A stretch of 64,000 nt of DNA, taken from assembly GCA_020833055.1 (NCBI GenBank), contig JAJHQZ010000001.1, positions 62,001 through 126,000 of the forward strand, in the 5' to 3' direction. The DNA comes from Candidatus Korarchaeum sp. (GTDB taxonomy: Archaea > Korarchaeota > Korarchaeia > Korarchaeales > Korarchaeaceae). Both the position numbers and the translations under genes were made by a program. The notes beneath the pieces were generated by a model. The model saw nothing but the letters and a program-made list of their open reading frames with translations, was not told where the DNA came from and did no database searches. Below, piece by piece: positions 1,303 through 52,643 of the stretch (position 1 is the stretch's first letter; each line of letters begins with the position of its first letter).

Positions 1303-1406
1303 TGCCGGGGCCGGGATTTGAACCCGGGACCTCCGGATATCCCAGCGGCGCCGGGGCCCTACCCACTTATGAGTCCGGCGCTCAAACCAGGCTGAGCTAC
1401 CCCGGC
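1303..1406 (-). tRNA. tRNA-Met(CAU) with a 29-nt intron
   Basis: Reading the minus strand, a full cloverleaf folds: acceptor GCCGGGG/CCCCGGC, D stem GCUC/GAGC, anticodon stem CCGGA/UCCGG, T arm CCGGG-UUCAAAU-CCCGG and discriminator A. The anticodon loop reads CU-CAU-AA once a 29-nt intron (1339-1367) is removed at the canonical 37/38 site. The mature tRNA is 75 nt. First base pair G-C and discriminator A rule out an archaeal initiator, which normally starts A-U. Elongator Met is favoured; a tRNA-Ile2 whose CAU is modified is the alternative. A TATA-like stretch lies at about 1430-1438, 25-30 bp upstream. Confidence 0.93.
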
Positions 1407-39569: not shown

Positions 39570-39845
39570 TCAAACTCTCACCATCTGGATAGCTTTGGTA
39601 GGGCACTCAACCTCGCAAATACCGCATCCCTTACAATGATCGAGATCCGGCACTGGAACGCTCTCCCCATCCCACCTGTAGACACTATCTGGACAGTACA
39701 TCCAGCAAAGGCCGCATTTGATACATTTACTCTCATCGATTTTCGGTTGAAATACAGCCCACTCACCGGTCGGATACTCCTTCGCGCTTATGAAGGCAAC
39801 ACCACCTATTGGAAGATCCTTCCAACCAACTAAACTGGAGCTCAA
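39570..39845 (-). CDS. porD: pyruvate/2-oxoacid:ferredoxin oxidoreductase, delta (ferredoxin) subunit
   Basis: A 91-residue 2x[4Fe-4S] protein with CIKCGLCWMYCP and CKGCGICEVECP motifs in the second half and the PorD-type N terminus (PIGG and WAVFQPKID). TTG start with GGAGGTGAT six bases upstream, overlapping the porG stop by 4 bp. It passes electrons from porB clusters to ferredoxin. Confidence 0.93.
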   Translation of the reverse strand: MSSSLVGWKDLPIGGVAFISAKEYPTGEWAVFQPKIDESKCIKCGLCWMYCPDSVYRWDGESVPVPDLDHCKGCGICEVECPTKAIQMVRV

Positions 39846-40429
39846 GCCCTGATCACCTCCTTCACATGATCAACAGAGGCCTCCTTCATCGCTCTCCTCA
39901 TAGCGTTTATGTTCTTCTGAGCTACATCACCTGACCATCTCCACCTTATACCCTCCTCGAGGTACTCTATCGCTAGTAAATTAGTGGCTGCCAGGAGTAA
40001 TCCAAGCATCGTAGTATTGGGAGAAGCTCTACCGATCTCTTCCAATGCTATAGTTGTTGCATCCACGCTCCAAACTTCGAATTCGCCTGGGATACTTAAC
40101 TGCGATCTGACAGACGATGGATCACTATCGGAATTGACTAGTAGCTTACCGCCAGGCTTCAATCCCTCTATGAGTGAGGGGACATACCTCGGCTTCAGTA
40201 AACTAGGATCTATAACGATAACGATATCTGGCTCGTATACAGGCCCTCTCTCGACTATGGGTTCATCATCTATCCTGTTGAATGCTGTAACAGGACCACC
40301 TAACCTCTCAGGTCCGAATTGAGGGAAGGATTGTGCGTATTTTCCAGCTTTTATCGCGGCATAAGCGAGGACCGCAGAACCGCTCCAAACACCCTGACCC
40401 CCTCTTCCATGCCATCTTATCTCTATCAG
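39842..40429 (-). CDS. porG: pyruvate/2-oxoacid:ferredoxin oxidoreductase, gamma subunit (probable CTG start)
   Basis: Translated from 40429 the frame gives 195 residues opening IEIRWHGRGGQGVWSGSAV, with SFPQFGPERLGGPV, the standard PorG N-terminal motifs. A conventional start exists only at 40162, which would remove the entire GGQG region and is therefore rejected. Upstream of the motif the frame has an in-frame TAG six codons before and no ATG, GTG or TTG. CTG at 40427-40429 has GGTGAT six bases before it and gives the expected first residue (M-IEIRWHG). A one-base sequencing or assembly error in the neighbouring CCC run, restoring an ATG at 40437, is the alternative. Confidence 0.85.
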   Translation of the reverse strand: MIEIRWHGRGGQGVWSGSAVLAYAAIKAGKYAQSFPQFGPERLGGPVTAFNRIDDEPIVERGPVYEPDIVIVIDPSLLKPRYVPSLIEGLKPGGKLLVNSDSDPSSVRSQLSIPGEFEVWSVDATTIALEEIGRASPNTTMLGLLLAATNLLAIEYLEEGIRWRWSGDVAQKNINAMRRAMKEASVDHVKEVIRA

Positions 40430-40930
40430 AGGGACATCACCCTAATCTGAGGGAGTAGTATAAGGTAAAAAGATATCTGATCTCTCTCCCTAGAATATTT
40501 TTACAATCCTCACTTTATATGAAAATTTTATACATACATTCGTTCCCCACTGATAAATCTAGAATCGTACTTATGCAATACAAAAAATAAACTGATCTTT
40601 TTTATACACCTTAAAGTACGTAGAAAAATATAAATCAGCCAAACTAGATATCTAATATCTCTTGGTGCCGAAACGCCTACTTTAAGTAACAAAATGTACA
40701 TTTAAGAGATTGACTAGATGCAACGTTCCGACGGATAAGCTCACCTTATAGAAACAGATCCGGGCTAATGCTCTCCGCCCAGGAGTACTATTAGTAAGTA
40801 GTGCGGATCTCGAGAAGAGATCTGGATCCAATAATAAGACACCTGGATTAAGATCAGACATTTTAAAGGTCATCAGTCAATCGATCGCGAATTTTTAAAT
40901 AGATTCAAACCACCTTGAGTCGGTGGAGGT
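40430..40930. other. 487-bp intergenic region with A/T-rich half and inverted repeats
   Basis: From about 40444 to 40680 the sequence is strikingly A/T-rich with several TATA-like runs and no coding frame. The second half contains AGATCCG (40756-40762) paired with CGGATCT (40804-40810), an internal ACTA/TAGT hairpin, and an overlapping alternative hairpin GATCTC/GAGATC (40806-40822). A 63-codon minus frame (40682-40873) begins with ATG about 26 bp from the TTTTTAAATA element at 40893-40903, but it uses CGG codons rare in the neighbours and shows no recognised domain; I leave it unassigned. The same element faces the PDO gene on the plus side. Confidence 0.35.
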
Positions 40931-50838: not shown

Positions 50839-51528
50839 ATGTATTTATCTAAAAAGGCGATTATCGATGGAGTCAGCTTCGAGGGGGAAGCCGTGGTCCT
50901 AGGTGAGACGATAATAGGCAAGGGGTCCGTGATAGGGTTCTACTCAGTGATAGGATATCCAACACTTCCGAAAGTGAGGGGTAGGGAAGTGAGCATAGAG
51001 GAGTACGATCGCTTGAGCGAAGGAGCTAAGTTGGGGGAGGGGTGCTTCATAAGGAGTCATTCAGTCATATATGAGAGGGTGACTCTGGGCAATAACGTTC
51101 AAACCGGGCATTCTGTCCTGATAAGGGAGGACTCGAGTGTGGGAGATCGTACTTTGATAGGGACTCATTCCATTGTGGATGGAAGGGTTAAGATAGGGAG
51201 GGATGTGAGTATCCAGAGCGGGGTCTATATACCTCCGATGAGTGAGATAGGCGATAGGGTCTTCCTAGCGCCATTCGTGGTAATCACTAACGATAAATAT
51301 CCGCCGAGTAGGAGGCTGTCGGGAGTCAAGATAGAGGATGATGCGATAATAGGCGCTAATTCCGTACTAGTCTCAGGTGTGAGGATAGGGGAAGGTGCTG
51401 TAGTAGCCTCAGGAGCTGTTGTAACTAGAGATGTCGAGCCCCGAAAGGTCGTTATGGGAGTCCCAGCGAGAGTCGTCGGAACTAGAGAGGAGTATGATAG
51501 GAAAAGGAGGGAATATGAAGGGATCTAG
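50839..51528 (+). CDS. left-handed beta-helix acyltransferase (hexapeptide repeat)
   Basis: A 229-residue hexapeptide-repeat protein with about ten [LIV]-G-x4 turns, for example TIIGKGSVIGF, VGDRTLIGTHSI, VKIGRDVSIQSG and IGANSVLVSGVRIGEGAVVASGAVV, forming a left-handed parallel beta-helix. It belongs to the WbbJ/LpxD-like sugar O- or N-acetyltransferase group, and catalytic His residues occur in IRSHSVIYE and THSIVDG. Its natural substrate is probably a nucleotide sugar. A TTTTATAG box about 30 bp upstream within the beta-grasp gene fits the ATG. It converges on radA with a 4-bp overlap. Confidence 0.85.
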   Translation: MYLSKKAIIDGVSFEGEAVVLGETIIGKGSVIGFYSVIGYPTLPKVRGREVSIEEYDRLSEGAKLGEGCFIRSHSVIYERVTLGNNVQTGHSVLIREDSSVGDRTLIGTHSIVDGRVKIGRDVSIQSGVYIPPMSEIGDRVFLAPFVVITNDKYPPSRRLSGVKIEDDAIIGANSVLVSGVRIGEGAVVASGAVVTRDVEPRKVVMGVPARVVGTREEYDRKRREYEGI

Positions 51529-52556
51529 ACGTCTTCAATACCACCTTGAGTTATAACTATCTCAACAGTGCCTTCTGGGAGGTATGGGCTCTTAACGAGT
51601 TTCACGACCCTCCTATCCTTCTTCCCTCTCTTTATGTAAAGTCTCGCTGTCACCCCGTGCCCCAGGACATGACCTCCTGCGGGCTTATTAGGGTCGCCGA
51701 AGAAAGCTGTAGGATCTGCGACGACTTGATTCGTGACTATTACAGCCATATTATACCCTAATGCGAGTCTGAGAAGCTTGTGTAAGTATTTATTGAGCTT
51801 CTGCTGTCTCTCGGCTAAGGTCTCCCTGCCCACGTACTCCCCCCTGAAGTGACTTATGAGGGAATCCACTATTATGAGGCCGATATCCCTCTCCTTTATG
51901 TATGATTCAGCTCTTTCAGTCACTATCATCTGATGATCGCTCGTGAAAGCCCTAGCATAGAGTATGTTCTTTAAAGCATACTCGGGATCGAGCTTGAACC
52001 TTTCTGCTATCTGTATTATCCTCTCTGGCCTAAAAGTACCCTCAGTATCTATGTACATAGCCCCTCTACCGAGTCCACCTTTATCCTCAGCTAATTGAAC
52101 AGTTACAGCCATCTGGTGGCAGAATTGAGTCTTCCCAGATCCGTAAGGACCGTATATCTCAGTTATAGATTGTGTTTCGACACCCCCTCCTAATAATTCA
52201 TCTAGAGCTTTCGACCCTGTCGTTATCCTTTGAACGGCCTTCCTCTGCTGATAAAAGTCATAAGCCGACATGACATCTATATTGAGCTTACTCCTCGCGG
52301 CCTGTATTATCTTTTGAGCGACAGTCTCACTTATCCCAGCATATACCGCGAGCTCGGAGGGTGTTGACATCGCTATAGACTCTAAGCTAGTGAAACCAGC
52401 CTCCACCAACCTCCTAGCAGTAGCGGGACCAACCCCCTCGAGCTCGGTCAGATCATATTCCCCGGAGACATCGGATTCCTCCTCATAATAATCCTCACTC
52501 TCCTCCTCAAATTCATCCTCAGGAGGTTCCTCTACTCTGACCTTTCTCCTCGGGAT
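51525..52556 (-). CDS. radA: RadA recombinase; non-standard start (ATC or frameshift)
   Basis: RadA forms the strand-exchange filament of archaeal homologous recombination. As 343 residues the protein has an acidic N-terminal stretch, the helix-hairpin-helix domain GVGPATARRLVEAGF (about 41-55), Walker A GPYGSGKT (136-143), the ATPase core and the L2-like DNA loop. A start at TTG 52409 would delete part of the HhH domain, so translation must begin earlier. Upstream no ATG, GTG or TTG exists in frame before a TGA. The codon ATC at 52554-52556, five bases after GGTGAT, gives the typical PRRKVRV start. A +1 shift at the CCC run after an out-of-frame ATG (52563) would serve as well. TATA at 52593-52600. 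Confidence 0.9.
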   Translation of the reverse strand: MPRRKVRVEEPPEDEFEEESEDYYEEESDVSGEYDLTELEGVGPATARRLVEAGFTSLESIAMSTPSELAVYAGISETVAQKIIQAARSKLNIDVMSAYDFYQQRKAVQRITTGSKALDELLGGGVETQSITEIYGPYGSGKTQFCHQMAVTVQLAEDKGGLGRGAMYIDTEGTFRPERIIQIAERFKLDPEYALKNILYARAFTSDHQMIVTERAESYIKERDIGLIIVDSLISHFRGEYVGRETLAERQQKLNKYLHKLLRLALGYNMAVIVTNQVVADPTAFFGDPNKPAGGHVLGHGVTARLYIKRGKKDRRVVKLVKSPYLPEGTVEIVITQGGIEDV

Positions 52557-52643
52557 GTACCATCACCTTCCAGAGGAAGTTGAACTAGCGGGTATATAAT
52601 CTTTAATGAGATGAAGTGAGCTTGTAGCTCAATCTCCATGAGC

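Follow-up and report, generated by a model that had tools for sequence, protein, structure and literature searches.

The radA gene of a Candidatus Korarchaeum sp. lies on the minus strand of the window, the 64,000-nucleotide stretch of DNA analyzed here, which comes from an archaeal assembly of 1.39 Mb in 25 contigs. The window genome was compared with 15 other genomes of the genus, and the radA start region could be read in all 16 (hereafter, congeners). Translated from an ATC codon, the window RadA matches the NCBIfam models NF003301 (464 bits; cut-off, 259) and TIGR02236 (442 bits; cut-off, 361) with end-to-end coverage of the profiles, and its closest solved chain is 1pzn. The product is an ordinary full-length archaeal RadA, and the start codon is the only unusual feature of the gene. 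The same genome also encodes a second, distant RadA-like ATPase with 36% identity (G000:C1:279427-280251).

Table 1. Features of the radA start region and of a porG-type gene in the window
Feature	Position	Strand	Remarks
radA coding sequence	51525..52556	-	ATC to TAG, 343 aa; stop codon 51527-51525
ATC start codon of radA	52554..52556	-	ATC, ATA or ATT here in 16/16 congeners
Spacer GGTAC, 5 nt	52557..52561	-	Unconserved among congeners
Shine-Dalgarno sequence AGGTGAT	52562..52568	-	7-base match, 5 nt upstream of ATC
Out-of-frame ATG overlapping the Shine-Dalgarno sequence	52561..52563	-	In 5/16 congeners; not the start; spacing -2
In-frame TGA closing the radA frame upstream	52563..52565	-	Overlaps the Shine-Dalgarno sequence; TGA, TAG or TAA in congeners
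TATA-box-like TTATATA	52593..52599	-	From sequence; similar place in most congeners, by eye
First in-frame TTG, radA codon 50	52407..52409	-	Within the helix-hairpin-helix; implausible start
porG-type gene	39842..40429	-	CTG start 40429-40427; TIGR02175, 189 bits
Shine-Dalgarno sequence GGTGAT of porG	40436..40441	-	6 nt upstream of CTG

After the upstream in-frame TGA, the minus strand reads TGG TAC ATC CCG AGG AGA AAG, and no ATG, GTG or TTG occurs in the radA frame from this TGA (52565-52563) up to the TTG at 52409. An earlier, sequence-only reading of this DNA had reported this absence, together with 49 residues of RadA upstream of the first TTG and a GGTGAT followed after five bases by an in-frame ATC. 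All three statements were borne out on the minus strand: the distance from ATC 52556 to TTG 52409 is 49 codons, and the Shine-Dalgarno (SD) sequence, spacer and ATC directly follow one another. When the protein is translated from the ATC, the NCBIfam RadA models align from residue 33-35 onward. The first ~33 residues thus form an acidic tail specific to the lineage, whereas the TTG sits within the helix-hairpin-helix (HhH). If the TTATATA upstream acts as a TATA box, transcription would start ~10 to 16 nt before the ATC.

To judge the fit of the SD sequence, the canonical reference was a set of 98 genes that share an NTG start (ATG, GTG or TTG), with spacing scaled to GGAGGTGAT. Of these genes, 48 had an SD match of 5 bases or more, with a spacing of 3 to 6 in 39 of the 48 and of exactly 5 in ten. 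On this scale, the spacing in the window radA is 5 for the ATC, -2 for the out-of-frame ATG and -4 for the TTG, and that of the ATC falls within the canonical range. A match of 7 bases or more is found for the radA SD sequence of 13 of 16 congeners, versus 15 of the 98 canonical genes; 15 of 16 congeners reach 6 bases or more.

Conservation of the radA start within Korarchaeum

The radA start site reads ATC in seven congeners, ATA in seven and ATT in two (collectively, AUH). Diversity is zero at the first and second bases of this codon and 0.64 at the third; the five bases preceding it vary freely (0.49 to 0.74), and the nine SD bases range from 0.12 to 0.34. Since AUH occurs in all 16 congeners with this pattern of diversity and next to a free spacer, the observation is not due to chance. 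The codon after the start is CCN in every congener and is followed by Lys or Arg codons. The upstream stop is TGA in most congeners and TAG or TAA in the others, and in two of them an in-frame stop directly precedes an ATT start. The sequence-only reading had proposed looking for the same non-ATG context in related genomes, and this context is indeed kept throughout the genus. The absence of a usual NTG, together with an AUH in register with the SD sequence in 16/16 congeners, points to a conserved AUH start, and the comparison supports both the radA frame and the retention of AUH across the genus.

Outside the genus, in relatives of the same family or order, ATG opens the same radA region in all seven readable genomes, four of which have a protein starting with MPR or MPK; one further start was ambiguous (G025) and two were unreadable in fragmentary sequence (G017 and G023). 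Sequence comparison also turned up named relatives, among them Candidatus Methanodesulfokora. By our own reading of the congener tree, the third base may be explained by about two changes, and the missing G at this position is thus not on its own strong proof of selection against ATG. One fragmentary congener, G007, was counted for codon 1 and left out of the tree; it carries near-identical truncated radA copies on two short contigs (G007:C51 and G007:C158), probably an assembly duplicate or a strain mix.

Other genes of Korarchaeum were screened for missing NTG starts. A first mechanical screen of 183 open reading frames (ORFs) gave 35 flags, nearly all caused by tblastn overrun into leaders. 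A stricter four-genome screen covered 165 genes in ~224 kb of the window genome against the same region of three congeners; it flagged ten genes, of which radA alone had no NTG start across species. In the nine others, an NTG lies 6 to 15 columns further in (38 in one gene). This screen may miss genes with a chance NTG upstream, and it did miss porG, which came from the 183-ORF screen. porG, predicted to encode the gamma subunit of a 2-oxoacid:acceptor oxidoreductase, joins radA as the second window gene whose start is not ATG, GTG or TTG. Of 14 congeners, 11 start porG with CTG and three with TTG, two of the latter reading TTG ATG. With a near-cognate codon that alternates with TTG, porG is a milder case than radA.

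Recurrence of AUH starts in Asgard archaea

A search for radA in 119 genomes of the Asgard phylum revealed an ATT start in all eight Odin/Baldr-like genomes (two Odin-like and three Baldr-like genomes plus three others); G038 is presumably Odinarchaeum. In the three Baldr-like genomes, one radA copy starts with ATT and a second with NTG (L216, L220 and L225 versus L181-L183), and the second copy is an internal control. In a large Asgard family, designated f34, the radA start is AUH (ATT, ATA or ATC) in 20 of 34 genomes and ATG, GTG or TTG in the other 14. These counts derive from 41 genomes searched, with six left out (radA absent, fragmentary or not fetched) and one, G184 (L300), readable as either ATT or ATG and counted in neither class; an off-target locus (L266, wrong end) was dropped. 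The place of the start is fixed in f34, with GGAGGTC or a near copy followed by six bases and the start codon; the one exception is L197 (G139), which was counted as NTG though its ATG has a different spacing. Three AUH loci (L187, L188 and L196) have no NTG whatsoever before the RadA core. The exchange of AUH for ATG, GTG or TTG at one and the same spot between sister species is the best non-experimental evidence that the AUH is the start codon. SD sequences are equally strong in AUH and NTG radA genes of f34, so compensation by the SD sequence is not seen in this family.

Two control genes were read in the same family. Elongation factor 1A (EF1A) has an NTG start in 30 of 30 loci (28 TTG and 2 ATG; L303-L332), one of which, L306, appeared startless at first look and was settled as TTG, and FEN1 has an NTG start in 30 of 30 (24 ATG, 4 GTG and 2 TTG). 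The difference between radA (AUH in 20/34) and the controls (0/59, computed before L306 was settled) gave a P value of 1.3e-11 in Fisher's exact test, which ignores relatedness. Among these control genes in f34 and the 165 genes screened in Korarchaeum, the AUH start is specific to radA.

In a wider survey, an in-frame NTG was present before the RadA core in all of 59 other Asgard loci, 20 other-family loci, 60 more loci and 66 named archaeal loci. Three Baldr-like AUH loci are among the 66, and one f34 AUH locus is among the 59; the presence of an in-frame NTG is thus no proof of its use, and AUH starts may hide elsewhere. In a FastTree phylogeny of 131 RadA cores, for which no root was inferred, the minimum number of switches between AUH and NTG is five, compared with a mean of 35.5 after shuffling. 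Korarchaeum (support, 99) stands apart from the Asgard group (95 on the branch holding that group). With this topology and number of changes, two gains of AUH with several losses are the simplest history, and the tree indicates that the AUH start of radA arose independently in Korarchaeum and in the Asgard clade. Of the options raised in the sequence-only reading, initiation of radA at a nonstandard ATC is strongly supported by the 16 congeners and by the independent Asgard case. Its conservation, its recurrence and its likeness to the bacterial genes infC, pcnB and sigR had been missed in the sequence-only reading.

Competing explanations of the missing start codon

An out-of-frame ATG does overlap the SD sequence at 52563, and removal of one C from a CCC run would join it to radA, as had been pointed out before; this stands as a description of the text, but neither the ATG nor the run is conserved. 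It gave rise to two alternatives. One is an assembly error, with a base lost or gained in the CCC run or an ATG miscalled in a single metagenome assembly, for which the 25 contigs of the window genome and the single base required might speak. This explanation is refuted by the congeners and has virtually no chance of being correct: AUH and the frame recur in 16/16 separately assembled genomes, including one that consists of a single 1,590,757-base contig, and some congeners read ATA CC or ATT CC with no CCC at that place. The other is a programmed +1 frameshift from the same ATG, whose frame spans 14 codons, or readthrough of the TGA. Independent genomes keep the radA frame, however, only 5 of 16 congeners have the ATG, its spacing to the SD sequence is unsuitable (-2), and no slippery text is conserved among the congeners. 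For readthrough, the stop varies among TGA, TAG and TAA and even directly precedes the ATT in two congeners. Frameshifting and readthrough are accordingly rejected as very improbable. Initiation further downstream, giving a shorter RadA, draws some support from a GTG that some congeners have in frame at codon 6 or codon 8, but no NTG is conserved, and in 6 of 15 congeners the stretch before the core contains none. The TTG at 52409 lies within the HhH and lacks a proper SD spacing, and codons 2 to 45 vary most at their third positions, as expected of coding sequence; a downstream start is thus likewise rejected as very improbable.

Two further alternatives accept the AUH as the start. The codon could be read as isoleucine at initiation, so that RadA would begin with Ile, in keeping with a third base that varies exactly as in synonymous Ile codons. 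Against this, f34 sister species have ATG, GTG or TTG at the same place, which implies ordinary Met initiation, and no unusual tRNA, such as an odd initiator, was seen among those read, an incomplete set made up of 30 of 45 RF00005 matches plus the tRNAs in the stretches and in the window. We consider initiation with Ile highly unlikely. A more serious contender is that translation does begin at the AUH but the choice of codon is neutral, the strong SD sequence making any AUH good enough and leaving the codon to drift. The radA SD sequence is indeed stronger than that of most genes, and f34 species do switch between AUH and NTG. However, neither the 165 Korarchaeum genes nor the 60 control loci of f34 yielded another AUH start, AUH is kept through the whole genus, and the same gene was hit twice independently. 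Neutral drift is therefore a minority possibility, though a real one.

Proposed mechanism and known counterparts

Comparison of the sequences makes it almost certain that the AUH site is the radA start codon, and we regard it as probable that initiation at this weak codon limits RadA synthesis. In the proposed mechanism, the strong SD sequence five bases upstream would place the small ribosomal subunit at the ATC, where the initiator Met-tRNA (anticodon CAU) would pair with AUC at two of three bases. Initiation with such pairing would be inefficient, and the strong SD sequence would make it possible despite the third-base mismatch. The N terminus of RadA would still be Met, presumably removed before the following Pro. 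Selection may keep the weak codon as a ceiling on RadA synthesis, comparable to the effect of AUU on bacterial pcnB; selection for a low or adjustable RadA output is somewhat favored. The 14 f34 species that kept or regained NTG imply that a weak radA start is not indispensable.

The archaeal fidelity factor aIF1 is reported to disfavor non-AUG starts in Saccharolobus (PMC6237735), which makes it a natural candidate regulator of radA. aIF1 might accordingly set the yield of RadA, a suggestion that we offer tentatively. In Korarchaeum, aIF1 itself starts with ATG in all 12 loci read (14 of 16 matches were attempted, and two short loci were dropped), and a self-regulatory loop of the infC type is not visible in these loci; the product of the gene studied here is RadA, not an initiation fidelity factor.

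The closest counterparts are bacterial. According to PMC5472188, infC, which encodes the translation factor IF3, starts with ATT in Escherichia coli and with ATC in Streptomyces; like radA, it is essential and keeps an AUH start, the exact codon differing between species. Whereas radA encodes a recombinase, the infC product is a fidelity factor and represses initiation at the infC start codon. The poly(A) polymerase gene pcnB of E. coli has an AUU start and reduced expression (PMC1780047); its weak start limits the output of a gene outside translation, as the AUH would in radA. The sigR gene of Streptomyces, a stress-response gene, starts with GTC in 32 of 34 species and GTT in two and is repressed by IF3; it resembles radA in its conserved non-NTG start and extended SD sequence (PMC5472188) but differs in that the codon is GTH and the mechanism was demonstrated by experiment. 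Bacteria already provide a few genes with conserved AUH starts. For archaea, no description of such a start came up in a literature search that left most subscription papers outside its range, and a search by term found no mention of AUU starts in the archaeal reviews PMC7531240 and PMC8211752; as far as found, the archaeal instance is new.

An AUH start has thus appeared twice independently on a central recombinase gene, Asgard archaea included. More speculatively, archaea may have put their recombinase under start-codon control at least twice, with RadA output tracking the stringency of initiation. By analogy with the IF3-controlled starts of bacteria, this stringency might reflect the level or activity of aIF1 or the growth state, and such control might act as a translational substitute for the missing SOS-type control of RecA. 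If these ideas are correct, homologous recombination would be regulated through the choice of a start codon, archaeal initiation would tolerate third-base mismatches on an essential mRNA, and annotation with gene callers limited to ATG, GTG and TTG would leave the RadA of these lineages truncated or misplaced. Among the tRNA genes, a tRNA-Met(CAU) of 104 bases (positions 1303-1406, minus strand) probably bears an intron.
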